Below are positions 1 through 7,836 of a DNA stretch of 7,836 nucleotides, piece after piece. The notes beneath the pieces were generated by a model that saw only the letters and a program-made list of their open reading frames with translations, searched no databases and was not told the DNA's origin. Positions within the stretch are counted from its first letter, which is position 1. The number at the start of each line of letters is the position of its first letter. The stretch comes from Anaerolineae bacterium (GTDB lineage Bacteria; Chloroflexota; Anaerolineae; B4-G1). The DNA lies in NCBI GenBank assembly GCA_030620125.1, contig JAUXFI010000086.1, positions 1 to 7,836 of the forward strand, given 5' to 3'. The position numbers and the translations under genes were made by a program.

Positions 1-1062
1 CAGCGCCGCTCCGTTATCCCACACGATGCAGTTGACCAGCGTGGCGGTGCCTCCGCCCTGACCCGCGTGTCCTTCGTATAGGTAGATACCGTGTCTGGTG
101 TCGGACACTGTGTTGTTCATGATATGCGAGACCGCACCGTCTTTGACCGCAATGCCGGTGCCGCTGTAGGGGTCCGCATCACTGCCCAGGCAGGTATAGA
201 CCAGGTTATTCACCAGCGTTGTGGAGGAGGGGTGCCCGATGGAGATGCCCTTGTCGCCGCAATGGTGCAACTCGTTGCGCTCAATGATCGCCGATGAGTG
301 GTTCAGGTCCAGGCAGTCGTCGGAGATGTTGTGGATGTGGTTGTCCAGCAGCACTGCGGGGGTGGTCATGTCGCTGACTTCGATGCCTTCCAGTGCATCC
401 TCGCCATGTTCGACGTCATAGATGTGGTTGCCCTGGATGAAGGCGTAGCCACTGGTGACGTGCACGGCGTCGCGCTGAATGTCGTAAATCTCGTTGCGCA
501 GCAGGTAGATTGTCGGGGTGTAGCCGAACCAGGAATAGGTCTGGACAGCGTCGCTAGTGTCAGTGTGGCGCAGGATGCTATCGGCGATTGTTACCCGCGC
601 ACCGTAGGCCGAGACGCCGTGGGTGCGTGGGTTGCCGATCACCTCGCGGGTGTACTCGATCACCGCGTGGCTGATGCGGTTGTCCGCTTGGGTGCGGTCG
701 AGCAGGATGCCGCCCCAGTAGCCGCTCCCCTGTCGCGTGAAGACGATGGGCTGTTCGGCGCTGCCTTCCGCCAGCAACCGCCCCCCTTCATCCACGCGCA
801 GCCAGCGGTCCGCCTGGAAATGGAGCGTCACGCCTGGCTCAATGGTCAGCGTGATGCCCGATGGGACAACGATGTTGTCGGTGATGGCATAGGGGTAGCT
901 GCTGGTCGCGACCGTGGTGTCTTCCGTCAGCGTGCCGCCGTGGAAGGCGTCCCAGTAGACGGTGATCGTGAGGCTGTCCAGCCCGTCGGTGATGACGAAG
1001 ACGTTGTCCCGCGTCCAGAGCGTGCTGGTGTAATGCCAGGTCGTCGCCGTTGGGTACTGCAC
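1..1062 (-). CDS. Right-handed beta-helix C-terminal part of the CotH protein (partial, in a shifted frame)
   Basis: The minus strand is open from about 1080 to the left edge with no stop, about 350 codons, and has no end inside the window. The translation has the short repeating beta-strand pattern of right-handed parallel beta-helix (pectate-lyase-like/NosD-like) proteins, with rungs such as NHIHNISDDCLDLN, IIERNELHHCGDKGIS and TTLVNNLVYTC. It starts with an Ig-like strand region (VQYPTATTWHYTST) and a WDAFHGG segment. The frame is shifted by one base from the CotH reading frame upstream, and the change falls in the poly-G tract at 1062-1079. I read it as the C-terminal half of the same secreted protein, not a separate gene. 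A GTG at 1062 is the first possible start in this frame, but it has no separate ribosome-binding site beyond the G-run and no signal peptide. The likely role is extracellular polysaccharide or surface binding; enzyme activity cannot be judged. Confidence 0.72.
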   Translation of the reverse strand, partial: MQYPTATTWHYTSTLWTRDNVFVITDGLDSLTITVYWDAFHGGTLTEDTTVATSSYPYAITDNIVVPSGITLTIEPGVTLHFQADRWLRVDEGGRLLAEGSAEQPIVFTRQGSGYWGGILLDRTQADNRISHAVIEYTREVIGNPRTHGVSAYGARVTIADSILRHTDTSDAVQTYSWFGYTPTIYLLRNEIYDIQRDAVHVTSGYAFIQGNHIYDVEHGEDALEGIEVSDMTTPAVLLDNHIHNISDDCLDLNHSSAIIERNELHHCGDKGISIGHPSSTTLVNNLVYTCLGSDADPYSGTGIAVKDGAVSHIMNNTVSDTRHGIYLYEGHAGQGGGTATLVNCIVWDNGAAL

Positions 1063-3218
1063 CCCCCCCCACCCCCCCCTCCAGGGGGGGGAGAAAGAGG
1101 GGGGCTCCCGTTGGCGTAGACGTCGCGCAGGGGGGAGCACTCCCCTTCCAGTGTCACCTCCGGCTGTGTCGTGGCAAAGTTCTCCCCGCCGTTGGTGGTG
1201 ATGGAGAGTGTATCGTTGGGTATCTGGTTGTTCAGTTCCGGGATGCGGGCAGAGACGTACCACTTGAGCCTGTCCCGATCCTCGCTGCCCACCACGTCGG
1301 GCAGCGCGTCAATGCGCGGGTGCATCTCCGCCACCGCGAATTCATTCGCCGCGATGCTGGCAATGTCCTGATAGTACCAACGGGTAAAGTCCGGGTAGTT
1401 CAGGATGCGTTCCACAATGTCGCTGGCCAACCAGTTGGGCTCCCAGATGGAGTGGTCTGGGTACATAAAGGTGGCGTCGTGGTCCCAGGAGATGAGGATG
1501 AAACGGTCGTCGGAGGGGCGGTGGTAGAGAAAGTAGTCGTCGCCCTGCCCGACCCACAGCGCCCCCTCGTGGTTGTCCAGCACTGCCTGGACTGCGAACC
1601 AGCGCAGCCACTGGCGCATGTCGGCCAGCGCCTCCGTCTGGGTACGAAAGGTCTCGTCGGGGCTGTTGGTGAGGGCGTCGGTGAGGGCGATGACGTCGGA
1701 GTAGTCGTCCGCGTCCTCGTTGTTCTTCTTGAGGTAGTAAGGGCGGTAACTGTCGGGGTCAGGGCCGCGATAGCTCAGGTCGGCTCCGTCAAAGCCCCGG
1801 TAGAGGTTGCCGTTGTCGTCGTCCAGGAAGTGTGCTTCCAGAAAGTCGTTGTCCACCTGCTCGATGTCCAGGTAGTCGCCTTGCCCGTTCTCGTTGATGT
1901 AGAGCGTCACGAAGCGGGTATCGGAGGACGGCAGCCCGACGCGCTGGAACAAGTCGTGGGCCATCGCCTCCCGCCCCAGTTCGTCGCTCACCAGGTTGAT
2001 GCGCTCCCGGTCCTCGAACTCGTGCTCGTCGCGGAACTTGATGCGGTAGGGGCGGGGCCAGGAGTTGCGGGAGCTCTCGCCTCGGTAGCGCACACCGACG
2101 TTGTAGAACACTTCCCCCCCGTAGACGAAGGTCGCATCCAACAGGACGTTGGAAAAAAGGTCGCGGGTGGTCAACTCGGCCCAGTTCTCCTGCGTCATGA
2201 TGAGCCGGTAGATGGGCAGGTCACTCGTGGGTGGGGTGTCTTCCACCTGGTAGAGGTAGCTGACGGTGATTGGGAGTCCCGTCTCGCTGGAGCTAGTGCC
2301 CGGCGCACTGTCCGGCACGAGCCGTTCGGCATCCTCGTCGTCGGTGGCGGTGACGTAGAACTCGACGTACAGTCCATCCTCCTGGGCAGGGATGATGGCA
2401 GTGTAGACCCCCCCTGTCCCCTCCCCCAGGGGGGGGGAAGAAAGGGACATCGGTAGCATCAGGTAGTCGGGCGTCCCTTCGGGGCGATAGTGCAATGTTA
2501 CTGTCATGACGGCGCTGTTGTCGTCCACCAGTGCCGTGACTGTAACCGGCTGGCCGGAGGTGGGAATGGCGGGCGTGTGCGTCAGGTCGGTGATGCAGGG
2601 GGGGATGTTGTCGGTCGAGTAGATGCTGTTCTGCGCCCCGGGGGTGCCCAGGTTGGTCTCGACCGGCTGGCTGGCTCCCCAGGAGCAGGGGCGGTCGTTG
2701 TCGAAGGCCGGGCTGATCAGTTCCAGCGAGGGGCCGTGGCCGTCGGGCGCTTCGGGCCAGGGAAGGTGGTCGTCGTAGGTGACCTCGTCTACCAGAGTGC
2801 TTCCGTCGTCCTCAAGTGCCAGGCGCTCGCCGCCGTTGGAGAGGCGACCATCCTCAAAGGGGCCTAACACGCCGCTGATGCCGTAGACAGCTTCGACCGT
2901 AGCCGGGTCGTGGCCGATGACGACGTAGCCGCCGGGTGGGATGGAGACGCCGCCAGGGAAGGTGTATTCGATGCCGTCGCTGAACGCCCAGTTGGAGAGG
3001 TCAACAGAAGTGGTTCCGGCGTTGTAGAGTTCGATGTACTCCTCGCCGTGGTCGTCGGAGAGGGGGTGATATTGGATCTCGTTAATGACGATTTGTGAGC
3101 CGGACTGGGCCACGACAAATGACAAATGACAAATGACAAATGACAAATAAACAACAATGAACGCAATCAGCCATTTGGAGATTGGAATTTGGGATTTGGG
3201 ATTCGGGATATTGCTCAT
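927..3218 (-). CDS. Secreted lamin-tail / CotH kinase-domain protein (frame broken near its C-terminus)
   Basis: I start this gene at the ATG at 3218, which has GGAG (3226-3229) 7 bases upstream; a GTG at 3233 in the same frame is less likely. Residues 1-39 look like a signal peptide: two Lys, then the hydrophobic stretch LIAFIVVYLSFVICHLSFVV, then AQS. About residues 42-150 form a lamin-tail domain (INEIQYHP, EEYIELYNAG, WAFSDGIEYTFPGG, PPGGYVVIG). An Ig-like region follows at about 205-310. From about 334 to 600 there is a CotH-like domain with RGESSRNSWPRPYRIKF, EQVDNDFLEAHF, NLYRG, YYLKKN and, near 576, SWDHDATF. CotH proteins are secreted or spore-coat kinases, and lamin-tail/CotH fusions are common in exported bacterial proteins. 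The frame runs on to a stop at 927, but residues after about position 1062 are low-complexity and Arg-rich, whereas another frame gives a good beta-helix. The true product probably continues in that frame. Kinase activity is inferred from the family only. Confidence 0.85.
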   Translation of the reverse strand: MSNIPNPKSQIPISKWLIAFIVVYLSFVICHLSFVVAQSGSQIVINEIQYHPLSDDHGEEYIELYNAGTTSVDLSNWAFSDGIEYTFPGGVSIPPGGYVVIGHDPATVEAVYGISGVLGPFEDGRLSNGGERLALEDDGSTLVDEVTYDDHLPWPEAPDGHGPSLELISPAFDNDRPCSWGASQPVETNLGTPGAQNSIYSTDNIPPCITDLTHTPAIPTSGQPVTVTALVDDNSAVMTVTLHYRPEGTPDYLMLPMSLSSPPLGEGTGGVYTAIIPAQEDGLYVEFYVTATDDEDAERLVPDSAPGTSSSETGLPITVSYLYQVEDTPPTSDLPIYRLIMTQENWAELTTRDLFSNVLLDATFVYGGEVFYNVGVRYRGESSRNSWPRPYRIKFRDEHEFEDRERINLVSDELGREAMAHDLFQRVGLPSSDTRFVTLYINENGQGDYLDIEQVDNDFLEAHFLDDDNGNLYRGFDGADLSYRGPDPDSYRPYYLKKNNEDADDYSDVIALTDALTNSPDETFRTQTEALADMRQWLRWFAVQAVLDNHEGALWVGQGDDYFLYHRPSDDRFILISWDHDATFMYPDHSIWEPNWLASDIVERILNYPDFTRWYYQDIASIAANEFAVAEMHPRIDALPDVVGSEDRDRLKWYVSARIPELNNQIPNDTLSITTNGGENFATTQPEVTLEGECSPLRDVYANGSPPLSPPPGGGGGGGCSTQRRRPGITPARSGRGTTSSSSPTGWTASRSPSTGTPSTAAR
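1060..1108. repeat. C/G-rich palindromic repeat, copy 1 (inside the CotH gene, at the frame change)
   Basis: On the plus strand this is a run of 9 C, an A, 8 C, TCCA, 8 G, AGAAAGA and 6 G: an imperfect inverted repeat of C-tracts against G-tracts. It resembles the copy at 2407-2448 in the same gene and orientation; both have C-run, CCCCTCC, an A, a G-run and then a GAAAG-containing A/G tail. On the coding strand it translates to SPPLSPPPGGGGGGG, which does not fit the domain around it. The frame changes by one base here: one extra G in the 9-G tract, or two fewer, restores one continuous frame. The G-tracts could also form a quadruplex. Confidence 0.75.
2407..2448. repeat. C/G-rich palindromic repeat, copy 2 (in-frame insertion in the CotH gene)
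   Basis: On the plus strand, 7 C, TG, TCCCCTCCCCC, an A, 9 G and AAGAAAGGGA form an imperfect palindrome like copy 1. On the coding strand it reads SLSSPPLGEGTGG without disturbing the frame, between two strands of the Ig-like region (DYLMLPM before and VYTAII after). Peptides of the PPLGEG type are a known mark of dispersed palindromic repeats that have landed inside genes in several bacterial groups; that link is from memory, not a search. Confidence 0.7.
3114..3148. repeat. Five exact tandem copies of heptamer GACAAAT
   Basis: GACAAAT occurs five times in a row with no mismatch. Read on the minus strand it encodes YLSFVICHLSFVV, the main hydrophobic part of the CotH protein's signal peptide. 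Three turns of a 7-base unit make 21 bases, so the reading frame returns every seven codons, which gives the visible LSFV repeat. Tandem heptamers of this kind are known as short tandemly repeated repetitive sequences in cyanobacteria and similar genomes. Confidence 0.9.
3173..3208. repeat. Degenerate tandem repeat of an ATTTGGG-like heptamer
   Basis: The plus strand shows ATTTGGAG, ATTGGA, ATTTGGG, ATTTGGG and ATTCGGG in succession, so the units are 6 to 8 bases long. On the minus strand it encodes IPNPKSQIPISKW, the positively charged start of the signal peptide. The unit differs from the GACAAAT repeat 25 bases away, so two separate heptamer families meet in the first 40 codons of this gene. 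Confidence 0.75.
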
Positions 3219-3259
3219 CGCCCATCTCCACACTATCCACTTGCCATTCTACAATCGTT

Positions 3260-3288
3260 AGTATACCACAGATGGGGTTATTTTAGAA
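3260..3288 (-). promoter_or_regulatory. Probable promoter of the CotH gene (extended -10 type)
   Basis: On the minus strand, TATACT (3260-3265) is preceded by TGG, so an extended -10 is present within TGTGGTATACT. The hexamer 17 bases further up is TTCTAA (3283-3288), a weak -35. Transcription would begin near 3253, giving a leader of about 35 bases before the ATG at 3218, which carries the GGAG site. The same TGTGGTA core occurs at 3561-3567 and 7676-7682. Confidence 0.55.
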
Positions 3289-3480
3289 AGGGCACACTGC
3301 TGGCGCGGGTGCTAGAGAGACGGCTTTCTTCCTAGTTGTCGGGTCGAGGAGATGGTGCCAGGGCAGAAACGGATTTGTGAGGGGAGAGAATGTGCTGTGG
3401 CCGATTTGACGTTGGCTGGGAATTCGGACGTTCTGGTGGCCCTCCGTCGTACAGCGAACAGTGAAGGGCCCTAAACGTAC

Positions 3481-3512
3481 TGAGAGCCAGGGTTGCCGCA
3501 CCCTGGCTCTCA
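3481..3512. other. Perfect 13-bp hairpin, possible terminator, attenuator or small-RNA stem
   Basis: TGAGAGCCAGGGT (3481-3493) pairs without mismatch with ACCCTGGCTCTCA (3500-3512) across the loop TGCCGC. It lies about 120 bases past the kinase stop and about 40 to 70 bases past the start point predicted from the extended -10 at 3557-3562. No run of T follows it on either strand (CCAAAAGG on plus, GTACGTTTAG on minus), so it is not a classical intrinsic terminator. It could stabilise the kinase mRNA end, attenuate read-through, or be the body of a short RNA. Confidence 0.7.
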
Positions 3513-3556
3513 CCAAAAGGAGGAGAAGAAGAGAAACCGCCTCTAACTCTGCTTGT

Positions 3557-3567
3557 ATGATACCACA
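3557..3567 (-). promoter_or_regulatory. Extended -10 promoter element downstream of the kinase gene
   Basis: On the minus strand the sequence reads TGTGGTATCAT, with TATCAT at 3557-3562 as the -10 and TGG before it. No good -35 stands 16 to 18 bases above. The repeat array at 3592-3622 begins 29 bases upstream, where an activator would sit. A transcript would start near 3550 and run into the hairpin at 3512-3481 without meeting a gene before the CotH start at 3218. Confidence 0.4.
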
Positions 3568-3591
3568 TCTCGCCCCGCAAGACTTGACGTC

Positions 3592-3622
3592 AACCCTACG
3601 CCAACCCTACGAAAACCCTACG
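3592..3622. promoter_or_regulatory. Three direct repeats at 11-bp period, candidate response-regulator binding array
   Basis: AACCCTACG occurs at 3592-3600, 3603-3611 and 3614-3622, with starts exactly 11 bases apart. Written as heptamers this is AACCCTA with 4-base spacers, TAGGGTT on the other strand. A 7+4 direct-repeat layout on one face of the helix is how OmpR/PhoB-family regulators bind (for example Pho boxes). A 10-bp palindrome, TTGACGTCAA, overlaps its left edge (3584-3593). The array lies 11 bases past the kinase stop and upstream of the extended -10 at 3557-3562. The regulator is not identified. Confidence 0.5.
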
Positions 3623-3633
3623 CTGCTCGCAGA

Positions 3634-5565
3634 TCAGTTCTTTAGTACAGGCAGCACGAAACTGAAGACGCTGCCCTCCCCCGGCCTGCTCTCTACCCAT
3701 ACCCGCCCATTGTGTTTCTCGATCACCGCCTTGACGATCGCCAAACCCAGCCCCGTGCCCTCAATGTCCTCTGTCTCGTCCGACTCCACGCGGTAGAATC
3801 TATCAAAGACATACGGCTGTTGGACGTGAGGGATGCCGATGCCATTGTCGGCCACGCATACTGTGACGTATCCTTCTTCCTCGGCTGCGCTCACGGCGAT
3901 CCAGCCGCCTGCTTGCGTATACTTGACCGCATTGCCCAGCAGATTGTCCATCACCTGGCGCAGACGAAGGGAGTTGCCCTGCACCGGCGGCAGTGACTCT
4001 GACGGCTGCCAGCGTAGGTGCTGTTCCTTCTCCTTGGCCCGCGGTCTCAAGTCCTGGATTGTTTCCTCTATCACCTGCGCCAGGTCGCAGGGCGCCATTT
4101 CCAGGTCAAATCCTGCCTCGACGCGGCCGATGTCGAGGAGATCGCCAATTAGCTCGGTGATAGCCCCCATGCTCCCGCGGACACGCTGGATGAATTCCTC
4201 TTGTTGCGCGTTCAGTGGCCCTACTCGCGGCAGCAATTCGACGTAGCCCAGGATGGAGGTCAACGGCGTGCGCAGATCGTGAGAGACAGTGGCGACGAAC
4301 TCGGACTTGATGCGGTCTAATTCCTTCAGGTGAGTGATATCCTGCATCACCAGCACCCGGCCGACCCCTTCGATGGGCGTGAGTTGCGCGTTGAACGTCC
4401 GCCCGCTCTCCATTACCATCTCACCGTGTGCTACTCGTCTTGTCTCGTGTACCTGGGCGAACATCTCACACAGGGCTTGGTGCGGGACAACTTCGCTGAC
4501 AGGCCGGTTCAACAGGCTCACCTCGACCAGGCCAAGCGCGACACGGGCTGCCGCGCTGCACAGCAAGATACCGTTTTCCTCGTCAACGACGATGATTGCC
4601 TCCTGGGCCTCCCGCAGTACAGCCTCCAGCCTGGCTCGTTCGGTTTCGACAGCGTCGAAGAGGCGCGCATTTTCGATGGCGATGGCCGCGTAATCCGCCA
4701 GGGCCGAAAGCAGGAAAATGTGTCGTTCGGAGAAAGAAGACTCCGACTCGCGATTGACCACCCCCATCACGCCTATCACCCCGCGCTCAGGAACCCGCAA
4801 CGGCAGGTAGAGCAGTGCCTTGACCAGGTAGCCGGTGGCGGCCTTGGTGCGTTCGCCGGACAGAAGCACAGGCCGATCCGTTCGGATCGCCCTGCCAGCG
4901 ATGCTATCGTCTACGCGCATGCGCAGACTCCGCGCTGTCTTTTCGTCCACATCCTTGGCTGCCCGCAAGTAGAGTTCGTCCCCTTCCTCATTCAGCAGCA
5001 GGAGCAAGCCTTCTTCGGCTTCCGCCATGTACACCGCTGCCTCAACCACACGGTTGAGCACGCGATCCAGGTCCAGCAACGACGTGACCGACCGCCCAAT
5101 TGCGTAAACGGCGTTCAGTTCCTGGAGTTGGTCCTGAAGTTGCCGGGTGGTCTCCGTTTGCTGCTGCGCGAGTTGATCCCGTTCCTCGCGCAATCTGGTA
5201 CCGGCGAGGACGCGCCCAATCGCTTCCTGCATCTCCTGGTGCTCGAAAGGCTTGATCAGGTAGTCGCGCGCCCCCAGCCTAAAGGCCTGGACAGCCAATT
5301 CGGCGGATTCGCTGGTGGTGGTAAAGATGACCGGGATGGTCACGTTCTCTTCTCGCAGTGCTTGCAGCACTTTGAGCCCGTCCATCTTTGGCAACTGCGT
5401 GGCCAGGATGATGAGATCGGGGTGCTCCTGCAAGGCCAGCCGAAGCCCCTCTTCTCCATCCAGGGCTGCGATGGGCCGATAGCCGCTGGGTTCAAGCACC
5501 AGCTCGGCCAACAGTTGCCGAGTTTCAGCGCTATTGTCTATGACCAGGATGCATTCTTGTGCCAC
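3634..5565 (-). CDS. Hybrid sensor histidine kinase: pseudo-receiver, GAF, PAS, HisKA, HATPase
   Basis: This 643-residue protein has no membrane segment, so it is probably a cytoplasmic sensor kinase. It starts with GTG, with AGGAGG (5571-5576) 5 bases upstream. Residues 5-120 form a receiver domain with the conserved Lys (K105, DYLIKPFE) and Thr (within FTTTS, 81-85). The acceptor Asp is replaced by Ala55 in DLIILATQLPKMDG, and the acidic pair is Asp10-Asn11. About 121-150 is a Gln/Glu-rich coiled coil, 151-300 a GAF domain, and 305-415 a PAS domain ending in VLVMQDITHLKELDRIKSEF. HisKA has the phospho-accepting H429 in VSHDLRTPL. The ATPase core is complete: N box DNLLGNAVKYT (540-550), G1 DNGIGIP (573-579), F box FDRFYR, G2 GTGLGLAI. 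The kinase should be active, with the receiver acting as a phosphorylation-independent input or dimer module. No partner response regulator is in the window. It has its own promoter. Confidence 0.95.
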   Translation of the reverse strand: MAQECILVIDNSAETRQLLAELVLEPSGYRPIAALDGEEGLRLALQEHPDLIILATQLPKMDGLKVLQALREENVTIPVIFTTTSESAELAVQAFRLGARDYLIKPFEHQEMQEAIGRVLAGTRLREERDQLAQQQTETTRQLQDQLQELNAVYAIGRSVTSLLDLDRVLNRVVEAAVYMAEAEEGLLLLLNEEGDELYLRAAKDVDEKTARSLRMRVDDSIAGRAIRTDRPVLLSGERTKAATGYLVKALLYLPLRVPERGVIGVMGVVNRESESSFSERHIFLLSALADYAAIAIENARLFDAVETERARLEAVLREAQEAIIVVDEENGILLCSAAARVALGLVEVSLLNRPVSEVVPHQALCEMFAQVHETRRVAHGEMVMESGRTFNAQLTPIEGVGRVLVMQDITHLKELDRIKSEFVATVSHDLRTPLTSILGYVELLPRVGPLNAQQEEFIQRVRGSMGAITELIGDLLDIGRVEAGFDLEMAPCDLAQVIEETIQDLRPRAKEKEQHLRWQPSESLPPVQGNSLRLRQVMDNLLGNAVKYTQAGGWIAVSAAEEEGYVTVCVADNGIGIPHVQQPYVFDRFYRVESDETEDIEGTGLGLAIVKAVIEKHNGRVWVESRPGEGSVFSFVLPVLKN

Positions 5566-5588
5566 ACTTTCCTCCTGCTCCGCGCCTA

Positions 5589-5617
5589 AATATACACGGA
5601 TTCGCGGTGCAGGTCAA
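5589..5617 (-). promoter_or_regulatory. Sigma70-type promoter of the histidine kinase gene
   Basis: On the minus strand, TTGACC (5612-5617) and TATATT (5589-5594) stand exactly 17 bases apart, each with a single mismatch to the consensus hexamers. Transcription would start near 5582, leaving a leader of about 17 bases that contains AGGAGG. This is the strongest promoter in the window. It makes the kinase a separate transcription unit from the thioredoxin-like gene, whose stop is only 25 bases above the -35. Confidence 0.75.
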
Positions 5618-5642
5618 CCGGCGTCTCTACCATACCCGCCGA

Positions 5643-5888
5643 CTACAGACCTTGCGCCGCTTGGATCCACTCTGCGATCTCTTCTTTGCGCGGAATGTGG
5701 CCCGACGACTTGACCTCCTCGTCAATCACCAGGGCCGGCGTACTCATGACATCGTAGGCCATGATCGCATCCATCTTCTTGACCTTGATGAACGTCGCTT
5801 CGACGCCCACCTCGCCGGTTGCCTCACGGGCCAGCCTCTCCAACCGCTCACACTTGGAGCACCCACCACCCAGAACCTTGATTTCCAC
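5643..5888 (-). CDS. Small thioredoxin-like (redox-active disulfide) protein
   Basis: I place the start at the GTG at 5888, because AGGAGG (5895-5900) lies 6 bases above it. The longer frame to a GTG at 5912 would add MKRRRRCS and translate the ribosome-binding site itself. The product has 81 residues. It has a beta strand (EIKVLGGG), the active-site pair C10-S-K-C13, a Val/Lys-rich second strand, and MSTPALVIDEEV with the cis-Pro loop typical of thioredoxin folds. Length and GGGCxxC motif match the small archaeal/bacterial redox-active disulfide proteins. In many genomes these are encoded beside COG0701 permeases and ArsR-type repressors, as here with the permease. It is probably a cytoplasmic disulfide reductant or a metal/thiol handler for that transporter; the substrate is unknown. 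Confidence 0.88.
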   Translation of the reverse strand: MEIKVLGGGCSKCERLERLAREATGEVGVEATFIKVKKMDAIMAYDVMSTPALVIDEEVKSSGHIPRKEEIAEWIQAAQGL

Positions 5889-5903
5889 TGAACACCTCCT
5901 TCG

Positions 5904-5946
5904 ACGTTTCACGTCTTTACGTTTTACGTTTCACGTTTCGCGCTTC
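5904..5946. repeat. Tandem ACGTTTC heptamer repeat
   Basis: Reading the plus strand: ACGTTTC, ACGTCTTT, ACGTTTT, ACGTTTC, ACGTTTC and GCGCTTC follow one another. The tract fills most of the gap between the permease stop (5945-5947) and the thioredoxin-like gene, and its last bases touch the permease stop codon. It is a third heptamer family, different from GACAAAT and ATTTGGG. It lies in the transcribed spacer of what should be one operon. Confidence 0.8.
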
Positions 5947-6379
5947 ACTGTATGAACCAACCAAAGATCAGCCCTGACAGGGTGCTAAAGACCGTCACCA
6001 GAACCACGTACATCGCCGTTTTTCTCTTGCCGATGACCGAGTTGGTGATGAGGATGGACTGCAAACTCAACTCCGGGTCGGCCAGCAGATATGCCAGCAG
6101 CGGACCACGGTGCATGCCCAGCGAGAGGAACGTCTGCGCGATGGGTACCTCGACCAGCGTGGGAAAGTACATAAACACGCCAAACAGCACGCCGACCAGG
6201 TTGGGCCACACCGTGTTGTGCCCGGCGATGGCCTCGATCCACGTCGCGGGGATGATCGTGCGTGCCATCCCGGCCAGGAATACACCTACCAGAAGCAAGG
6301 GGATGATCTGTCTGACGAAGCGCCACATCTCCCACAGCCACTCCTGGACTTTGTATTCGTCGAACTTTTTGGCGGCCAC
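5945..6379 (-). CDS. C-terminal half of a COG0701/ArsP-type permease (N-terminal half absent)
   Basis: The 144-residue product is hydrophobic, with about four membrane segments: QIIPLLLVGVFLAGMARTII near 24-43, NLVGVLFGVFMYFPTLVEVP near 60-80, a re-entrant GPLLAYLLADPELSLQSILI, and MYVVLVTVFSTLSGLIFGWF at the end. MYFPTLVEVPIA and LLADPELSLQSILI are characteristic of the second half of predicted permeases of this family. Full-length members, as I recall them, have 300 or more residues in two related halves, and the first half is missing here. The frame is open further up to the stop of the preceding gene at 6461, so about 27 extra codons (including LIAAVWW) could be translated. The GTG at 6379 has no clear ribosome-binding site. 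Either a deletion removed the front half, or this is a split half-transporter. The neighbouring thioredoxin-like gene is its usual companion. Substrate unknown; some relatives export organoarsenicals. Confidence 0.8.
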   Translation of the reverse strand: MAAKKFDEYKVQEWLWEMWRFVRQIIPLLLVGVFLAGMARTIIPATWIEAIAGHNTVWPNLVGVLFGVFMYFPTLVEVPIAQTFLSLGMHRGPLLAYLLADPELSLQSILITNSVIGKRKTAMYVVLVTVFSTLSGLIFGWFIQ

Positions 6380-6460
6380 CCACCAGACGGCGGCGATCAG
6401 CTGGCTGGGGGCCTCTCTACCGGTTGCCTCGGGGTGGATTAAGGGATGGGCTGGCGGGTC

Positions 6461-6664
6461 TTATGTTTCTTCTGGCATCAAGCGGCAGGTAACGTGCAGA
6501 TAGGCAAAGTCCCCACGCGGTGGGATCAAGTCGGTGACTTGAGTGACTCTGAGCGTTTCATCGCCCAGTTGAATCCGGTCGCCTACGCGCGGCGGGGCGT
6601 CCAGATTAACGATCGCGCCCAGATGTGGCTTGCCTACGACGACGTAACTCACTTTGTAGATCAC
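6461..6664 (-). CDS. 67-residue protein of unknown function, coupled to the cNMP-binding gene
   Basis: The GTG start overlaps the stop of the preceding gene by four bases (GTGA). GGGAGG (6671-6676) lies 6 bases above it, inside that gene, which indicates translational coupling. The product has no membrane segment, no Cys pair and no recognised domain. It is predicted to be mostly beta: MIYKVSYVVVG, GAIVNLDAPPRVGDRIQLG, RVTQVTDLIPPRGDFAYLHVTC. The PxxGDxIxLG turn followed by short strands recalls small barrel folds, but that is only a resemblance. It has one Cys near the C-terminus and ends in MPEET. I infer a partnership with the cyclic-nucleotide-binding protein or carbonic anhydrase from the tight gene order alone. 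Confidence 0.75.
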   Translation of the reverse strand: MIYKVSYVVVGKPHLGAIVNLDAPPRVGDRIQLGDETLRVTQVTDLIPPRGDFAYLHVTCRLMPEET

Positions 6665-7146
6665 GGCGCACCTCCCGCTCCTGCTAGCCTTGCCTGGAGG
6701 TTGCGGTGACGGAGCTTGAACGACAGGTCGGCGGCGATGTTGCGCATCACGACGTAGCCAATGTCATGGTTGCCATCGCAGAGGTCCCAGAAGGCCTGGC
6801 GGGGGATGATGTAGAGCGTGCTACCGTCCTTCAAGCAGCGCACCGTCGCCGAGCGGACTCCGCGATCCACCAGCGCCATCTCGCCGCATAACTGTCCGTG
6901 ACCTAGACGGACGATGGGGGTCAGTTGGGGTGGCCCTGGCACGTCGGGGATTGCGCCCCTGGAGACCAATACCTCGACCATGCCACTGCGGACGATGTAC
7001 ATCTCATCGGAGGGATCGCCCTCGTGAATGATGACGTCGTCAGCGTCGTAGATAACTTTTTTGCACAGGGCGGCAATCCGCTCAATCTGTTCAGGCGTGA
7101 GCCCGGAAAACAACTCGCAGTGTCGTAACAAATCGGCGACCGACAT
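6661..7146 (-). CDS. Stand-alone cyclic-nucleotide-binding domain protein (no DNA-binding domain)
   Basis: The 161-residue product is a single CRP/cNMP-binding beta-barrel. It has LLRHCELFSGLTPEQIERIA at the start, IIHEGDPSDEMYIVRSGMVEV at about 39-59, and the phosphate-binding cassette GEMALVDRGVRSATV at 88-102, with Glu89 and Arg98 at the ligand positions. The usual Pro before that Arg is Val. It ends in helices (AFWDLCDGNHDIGYVVMRNIA) with no room for the helix-turn-helix of CRP/FNR regulators. It is therefore a small-molecule sensor or adaptor that would act through a partner protein. The ATG start has AGGAGG (7153-7158) 6 bases upstream, overlapping the end of the carbonic anhydrase gene. 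An insertion with Pro-rich VPGPPQLTP interrupts the barrel before the cassette, as in some kinase-regulatory relatives. Ligand not known. Confidence 0.9.
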   Translation of the reverse strand: MSVADLLRHCELFSGLTPEQIERIAALCKKVIYDADDVIIHEGDPSDEMYIVRSGMVEVLVSRGAIPDVPGPPQLTPIVRLGHGQLCGEMALVDRGVRSATVRCLKDGSTLYIIPRQAFWDLCDGNHDIGYVVMRNIAADLSFKLRHRNLQARLAGAGGAP

Positions 7147-7148
7147 AA

Positions 7149-7661
7149 CTATCCTCCTTTGCTGGCAGCCAGGAACGCCTGCGCTCGCGCGACATAGTGT
7201 GCAGCAAAGGTGCGCAGGCGCTCAATCTCCTCGTCTGTCAGTTCCCGCACCACCCGCGCCGGCACGCCCAGAGCCAGTCGCCGGGGTGGGATGATCATAC
7301 GTTCAGGCACCAACGCGCCAGCCCCGACCAGCGCCTCCCGGCCCACGACCGCGCCGTTAAGCACGATGGCCCCGATGCCGACCAACGCGCCATCTTCGAC
7401 AGTCGCGCCGTGCAGCACCGCCCGGTGACCGACGGTCACGTCCTCACCCAGCGTGCAGGGCTGCCCTACGTCTGCATGGATAACGGTGAGGTCCTGGACG
7501 TTGGTGCGTGCCCCGATGGTGATGGCTGCATTGTCGCCCCGCAGCACGCAACCAAACCAGACGCTCGCTCCGTCGGCGACACGCACATCGCCGACGATGG
7601 TCGCGTTCGGCGCGACGTAGGCAGTCGGGTGGACGAGTTCGGGGTGGTGGGTGATGTTCAT
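7149..7661 (-). CDS. Gamma-class carbonic anhydrase-like left-handed beta-helix protein
   Basis: The 170-residue product has the hexapeptide repeats of a left-handed beta-helix ([LIV]GxxxxI-type turns: ATIVGDVRVADGASVWFGC, ALVGIGAIVLNGAVVGREAL) and a C-terminal helix (DEEIERLRTFAAHYVARAQA). The three histidines that bind the metal in gamma carbonic anhydrases are present: H62 (VIHAD), H79 (VGH) and H84 (VLHG). The nearby Arg41, Asp43, Gln56 and Asp57 also match (LRGDNAAITIG, TNVQDLTVIHAD). The length fits the short YrdA/PaaY/CaiE-like branch. Proteins of this branch hydrate CO2 in some species and have other or unproven roles in others. It sits first in the cluster, two bases from the cNMP-binding gene. 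The ATG start lies about 4 bases from the predicted transcription start and has no Shine-Dalgarno sequence. Confidence 0.92.
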   Translation of the reverse strand: MNITHHPELVHPTAYVAPNATIVGDVRVADGASVWFGCVLRGDNAAITIGARTNVQDLTVIHADVGQPCTLGEDVTVGHRAVLHGATVEDGALVGIGAIVLNGAVVGREALVGAGALVPERMIIPPRRLALGVPARVVRELTDEEIERLRTFAAHYVARAQAFLAASKGG

Positions 7662-7671
7662 GGATGTTACT

Positions 7672-7682
7672 ATTGTACCACA
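7672..7682 (-). promoter_or_regulatory. Extended -10 promoter of the carbonic anhydrase cluster, giving a near-leaderless mRNA
   Basis: The minus strand reads TGTGGTACAAT, with TACAAT at 7672-7677. The hexamer 17 bases above is a poor -35 (TACAAA), so the TGG extension may matter. Transcription would start near 7665, about 4 bases before the ATG at 7661, with no room for a ribosome-binding site. A small inverted repeat, AAAAGC/GCTTTT (7683-7688 and 7692-7697), lies in the spacer and -35 area and could be an operator or a terminator for transcripts arriving from the left. Confidence 0.6.
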
Positions 7683-7714
7683 AAAAGCGCGGCTTTTGTA
7701 GTTTTCGGGTAACG

Positions 7715-7834
7715 ACTCAGGCGAGAGAACCCTTGCGAAGGTTTGGTGAGAACTTGCGGGCCAAAAGCGTCTTTGCCTACCAAAAGTTGCCCCGGCGACA
7801 AGGCCATTCGCAACCTTCGCAAGAGTAGCTGAGT
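7715..7834. repeat. Inverted-repeat pair bounding about 100 bases, possible miniature mobile element
   Basis: CTTGCGAAGGTT (7732-7743) has an exact inverted match, AACCTTCGCAAG (7812-7823). Outside these, ACTCAG (7715-7720) and CTGAGT (7829-7834) are also inverted, although 11 bases separate the parts on the left and 5 on the right. The inside holds two CCAAAAG copies (7761-7767 and 7780-7786) and no coding frame. It resembles a small non-autonomous element or palindromic repeat near the upstream end of the cluster; the right end is close to the window edge. Confidence 0.5.
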
Positions 7835-7836
7835 AG

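Follow-up and report, generated by a model that had tools for sequence, protein, structure and literature searches.

A dispersed palindromic insert at the frame junction of a CotH/beta-helix gene in an Anaerolineae bacterium

Rickettsia palindromic elements (RPE) and the protein-coding palindromes of Wolbachia are dispersed repeats that occur between genes and, in frame, within genes for conserved proteins, as described in the accessible parts of PMC10969869, PMC2229807 and PMC3733652. REP elements, which are associated with RAYT transposases (GTAG / CGTC families), are short palindromes that are often paired between genes and in some cases lie within them, according to the available portion of PMC3733652. 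In Helicobacter canadensis a G-run late in a gene sets the C-terminal sequence of the product, as far as the accessible text of PMC2823697 reports. Here, we describe a short GC-rich palindromic element that was found in a 7,836-nt stretch of DNA from an Anaerolineae bacterium (assembly GCA_030620125.1, contig JAUXFI010000086.1, positions 1 to 7,836 of the forward strand; hereafter the window), where it holds the junction between the two reading frames of a CotH/beta-helix gene. Like RPE and the Wolbachia palindromes, the element is a dispersed palindrome that is present both in intergenic DNA and in frame within conserved genes, and RPE is the closest system in behaviour, the two being likened by description and not by sequence. 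RPE-type palindromes are ∼100-150 bp long and encode a conserved peptide of their own, whereas the element measures 35-47 nt in the 24 in-frame copies whose two outer arms are both present, about a third of that length, and its PP..GG peptide follows trivially from the homopolymer arms. The hosts differ as well: RPE-type palindromes reside in obligate intracellular alphaproteobacteria and the element in free-living Chloroflexota-type genomes, a label derived from named contigs, L001 among them, and from membership in the same class as the genome of L001. In the open-licence literature, outside which most subscription papers lie, no earlier report of such inserts in Chloroflexota was found.

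On the minus strand of the window, one reading frame (927-3233) encodes the CotH and lamin-tail domains and a second one (1-1263) encodes the beta-helix, and the two are offset by one base. Domain searches and the comparison with relatives placed a signal peptide, a lamin-tail domain (PF00932) and CotH (PF08757) in an N-terminal part at 1104-3233. The beta-helix part (PF13229 and NosD, PF05048) was located by domain search at 1-1062 in the other frame, which is open to the window edge. No stop codon interrupts the CotH frame between 3248 and 930, nor the beta-helix frame between 1308 and 1. As these open stretches overlap by 379 nt, the switch between frames could by openness alone lie anywhere in 930-1308. 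The comparison with six related genes was more precise. Between the codons matching AGC (1106-1104) and GTG (1062-1060) the window has an interval of 41 nt (1063-1103), whereas five of the six relatives have 9 nt and L004 has 27 nt, which locates the frame change inside the insert. The insert is copy 1 of the element (1062-1104, minus strand) and reads C6-TCTTTCT-C8-TGGA-G8-T-G9; on the plus strand its runs are C9 (1062-1070), C8 (1072-1079), G8 (1084-1091) and G6 (1099-1104). In 1,000 dinucleotide shuffles of the window, three G/C runs that each span at least 8 bases never fell together within 45 bp. Past the element, the CotH frame would append an out-of-frame tail (927-1062) that ends at a stop codon (929-927). 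A first-pass annotation of this DNA had described frames that are one base apart and that join within an inserted homopolymer-rich repeat, and the runs, the coordinates and the interval in the relatives all agree with this. It had further placed the meeting point in the 9-G tract; the point does lie inside the repeat, but nothing among the four runs singles out the run of nine as the carrier of the length change. The repeat had been recognised as inserted; that it belongs to a dispersed set of palindromes which invade coding sequence had not been seen.

A second copy of the element lies in frame at 2408-2446 (minus strand), in a loop that, by ortholog comparison, is filled in relatives by other sequence or by a peptide resembling the element. 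Element-like single-frame peptides were present at this site in five of 47 parsed orthologs, and in P0059 by eye, all of them known as proteins only. In P0050, P0066 and L005, repeat-like inserts of a very different kind occupy the same surface loop (site A), which seems to accept foreign repeats. The hairpins of the element fold stably, with z-scores of only -1.08 and -0.59 that are no better than composition predicts. A reading of the element as structured RNA was dropped on account of these weak scores and of the lack of any Rfam match across the window. A search of plasmid records for the element also gave no match.

Orthologs were collected by a search of ∼5.8 billion proteins, which returned 533 matches, and the domain count given next covers the best 70 of these. 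CotH and beta-helix are contained in a single protein in 68 of the 70, and the orthologous DNA of six genomes (G001-G005 and G010) is open across the junction in all six cases, with no internal stop. The two halves in the window thus derive from one gene, as the first-pass annotation had proposed. An arrangement as two separate genes, one for CotH and one for the beta-helix, has nothing in its favour beyond the two frames themselves; it is already contradicted by the relatives, no ribosome-binding or start evidence was found for the second frame, and we regard it as next to impossible. A programmed frameshift, by which ribosomal or transcriptional slippage would yield both protein forms from one fixed sequence, would fit the overlap of the two open frames. 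The six orthologous genes available as DNA do without a frame change, which excludes a conserved programmed frameshift, and we consider such a mechanism very improbable here.

None of the best 70 orthologs among the 533 matches, except the window itself, ends at the junction. No ortholog at the same-species level was found: P0001 is the nearest database protein, and the best ortholog among 396 genomes of the class shares 80% identity with it. There is no sign of decay in the beta-helix half of the window, whose identity ratio to the CotH half takes rank 28 of 46, so that it is conserved relative to the CotH half as in the other proteins, and the break is therefore either recent or not real. 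The parsing of 87 proteins gave 62 junctions; P0052, P0064 and P0074 were left out, as they matched elsewhere. In one of these 62, P0123, the element peptide DGNPSLSPPPGGGGGGEVQYP is present in frame at the junction site and the protein, which is known from protein sequence only, continues into the beta-helix. The AlphaFold model of P0123 has a mean predicted local distance difference test (pLDDT) score of 87 and values below 50 at residues 176-187; the element, at residues 176-189, is left as a predicted disordered loop. The frame of P0121 begins inside the element, which made this protein a candidate for a second broken ortholog, but it was not counted, since the edge of its contig (2050 bp) explains this.

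The CotH leader has repeats of another kind. The heptamer tandem repeats GACAAAT x5 (3114-3148) and ATTTGGG x5.3 (3173-3209) encode much of the CotH signal peptide, and similar leaders are found in orthologs such as P0001, P0005 and P0028. As seven is not a multiple of three, a change in heptamer copy number in the leader would also shift the frame.

The sites of the element were investigated in 103 copies from 80 regions of eight genomes, which were classed by the codon usage of their flanks. This sample is not random, the regions having been drawn from the top of the pattern-search lists, and most of them belong to G007 and G105. In total, 43 copies were in frame within a gene, 34 had no coding flank, 14 had one coding flank, 11 were near a contig end (within ∼170 bases) and one had same-strand coding flanks in different frames. 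The frame was kept in 43 of the 44 copies flanked on both sides by same-strand coding sequence. The 43 in-frame copies are spread over 37 open frames, and 19 of the 42 that were scanned (L314 left out) lie within one Pfam match. Hosts named by Pfam included a class I tRNA synthetase (I/L/M/V type), which we take to be the valyl enzyme, alanyl- and prolyl-tRNA synthetases, topoisomerase I, an FGGY kinase, an E1 dehydrogenase, ETF alpha, ZnuA, ATP synthase alpha/beta and gamma-type subunits, an amine oxidase and an ABC transporter. A 24-residue insert of the class I synthetase has no counterpart in any of 14 aligned relatives, nor has the two-element insert of topoisomerase I in any of 16; these empty sites identify both as clean in-frame insertions. 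In the FGGY kinase, the element occupies the same place in two genomes (L207 976-995 and L289 1381-1403, in G007 and G105), which points to either an old insertion or a transfer.

Runs of 9-10 bases were kept in frame in eight of the 43 in-frame copies. The reading phase of the element varies, with codon positions of 24, 10 and 10 in 44 copies and a mild bias (chi-square p = 0.012). The idea that all in-frame copies share one phase, as their PP..GG peptides had suggested, was dropped in view of this distribution, since C- and G-runs give PP..GG in any frame. The four-arm form, with both outer arms, was present in 24 of 43 copies in genes and in two of 34 outside them (p = 2.3e-6), although the genomes differ; within G007 alone the numbers were seven of 14 and one of 12 (p = 0.036). 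In protein-coding genes, the element is a short Pro/Gly-rich, loop-forming insert that is normally in frame.

The complete architecture comprises a C-run, a spacer, a second C-run, a loop, a G-run, a spacer and a second G-run. Earlier searches among 99 relatives had given eight genomes with weak matches for plain DNA and three of 99 for a stricter pattern, and a looser core pattern (C6 N2-8 G6 N2-7 G6) was then adopted, with the reversed pattern as control. Of the 396 genomes from the class to which G001 belongs, 134 contained the core pattern, which makes the element a dispersed palindromic repeat. Counts were 214 + 186 in G105, against 3 + 5 for the control, and 65 + 52 in G007, against 0, all inflated by overlapping matches. 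In some genomes (G019, G244 and G368) the control equalled or exceeded the core pattern, and the count is unspecific there.

With REP elements the element shares a short palindromic form and a location that is partly inside genes. The GTAG foot of REP has no general counterpart, since just 17 of 130 arms carry TAG behind their outer G-run. These are concentrated in three genomes. The TAG is consistent in G202 and common in G343, and it is absent from G105. The element is therefore not a GTAG-tagged REP in general. Mobilisation by a RAYT was also considered. By our own reading, weak PF01797 matches of ∼200 aa are present in 12 of 20 element-rich and five of 20 element-free genomes, but these RAYT-like genes are not flanked by the element. 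A copy was within 200 bp of one of 19 such genes in element-rich genomes, none of seven in element-free genomes and none of 13 IS200-type genes, and no mobilising enzyme was found.

A further frame break lies at the element at 2003-2022 of L299, within the TatD DNase gene of genome G007; among the sampled copies, this is the one that has same-strand coding flanks in different frames. Here the element splits the profile into 1-144 and 149-253, which are encoded in two different frames. When the first TatD piece was searched in 26 genomes, 25 matched, with no internal stop except in G018. The TatD break is an independent counterpart of the break in the window.

The reading we favour, to which we give about an even chance, is that the offset in the window reflects a real, recent and one-off change in the length of the element by replication slippage. 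The dispersed palindrome enters coding genes as a loop and normally keeps the frame. In copy 1 the summed run length is one base away from what a single frame requires, and the CotH and beta-helix halves of the ancestral gene no longer share one; a single recent slippage event in one of the runs is, in our view, the likeliest cause. The cell would then produce CotH with a short foreign tail in place of its beta-helix. This reading is supported by the undivided gene of the relatives, by the in-frame element of P0123 at the junction site and the element-like peptides at the other site, by the family of copies in frame within other genes and the empty sites there, by the matching break in TatD and by the undecayed beta-helix half. 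Several observations weigh against such a change. A consensus error, in which the true gene has a single frame and a run in the GC hairpin was misjudged by the assembler or the sequencer, would look identical in the assembled sequence, and the first-pass annotation was right that sequence alone does not separate it from a mutation. The four G/C runs of 6-9 bases within 43 bases and the intact beta-helix half are in line with an error. The near-complete conservation of frame among the comparable copies means that breaks are rare, which favours error as much as mutation, and the 11 copies at contig ends indicate that assemblers do fail at these repeats. Further, a very recent loss would not show in the identity ratios, and the family peptide in P0123 and other orthologs comes from protein sequence only. 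Against an error speak the eight in-frame copies with runs of 9-10 bases, which come from the same kind of assemblies and suggest that runs of this length are for the most part resolved correctly in them. We consider a consensus error a serious possibility, though a somewhat doubtful one. Overall, a one-off change in length, be it real or in the consensus, is the likeliest account.

The first-pass annotation had also raised slippage as a phase-variable switch, in which frequent and reversible changes in run length would lead to CotH being made with or without its beta-helix. The runs of 8-9 G/C bases in a surface-protein gene resemble contingency loci such as those of H. canadensis (PMC2823697, accessible part), and the window has long homopolymers in coding sequence (C9, C8 and G8), as phase-variable contingency loci do. 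In addition, there is the second out-of-frame copy in TatD, and P0121 starts inside the element at the junction site, which the contig edge explains equally well. As in H. canadensis, a G-run late in the gene affects the C-terminal sequence. The runs of the element are shorter, however, the C-terminal switch tracts in the available text of that source being G10 or longer; no length variation was seen, comparable copies are almost always in frame, and mismatch repair is present, with MutL in all 13 relatives tested, so that less slippage is to be expected. Free back-and-forth slippage would leave many host genes out of frame. With 43 of 44 copies in frame (p = 2.6e-12 at a chance of one half, a value inflated by selection on essential genes), a routine switch is unsupported, although this argument is weaker for a surface protein, as it is essential genes that are selected to stay in frame. 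Moreover, ON and OFF states are not both common among the best 70 orthologs, nearly all of which keep both domains in one protein and none of which, besides the window, terminates at the junction. Given also the long runs that are kept in frame elsewhere, we regard the switch as unlikely. A wider version would hold that class-wide mobile palindromes with a symmetric four-arm form suit life in genes and enter essential enzymes as tolerated loops, that their homopolymer arms serve as slippage on/off sites for the downstream half, and that the window and TatD represent the OFF state; this we consider quite improbable.

Elsewhere in the window, an open reading frame of 144 aa (5945-6379) encodes an ArsP_1 permease that covers only positions 164-293 of the 294-position profile, the N-terminal half being missing. 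It adjoins a Thioredoxin_3 gene (5643-5912), and a third heptamer array (ACGTTTC x6.3, 5904-5948) lies where the thioredoxin gene begins.

For annotation, a frame break within such an element needs a check of the reads before a pseudogene or a switch is called. In-frame palindromic inserts were already known from intracellular alphaproteobacteria, and a shorter kind is present here in free-living Chloroflexota-type genomes. With copies in synthetases, a topoisomerase and ATP synthase subunits, and with empty sites in relatives, the effect of the element on proteins and its spread become testable.

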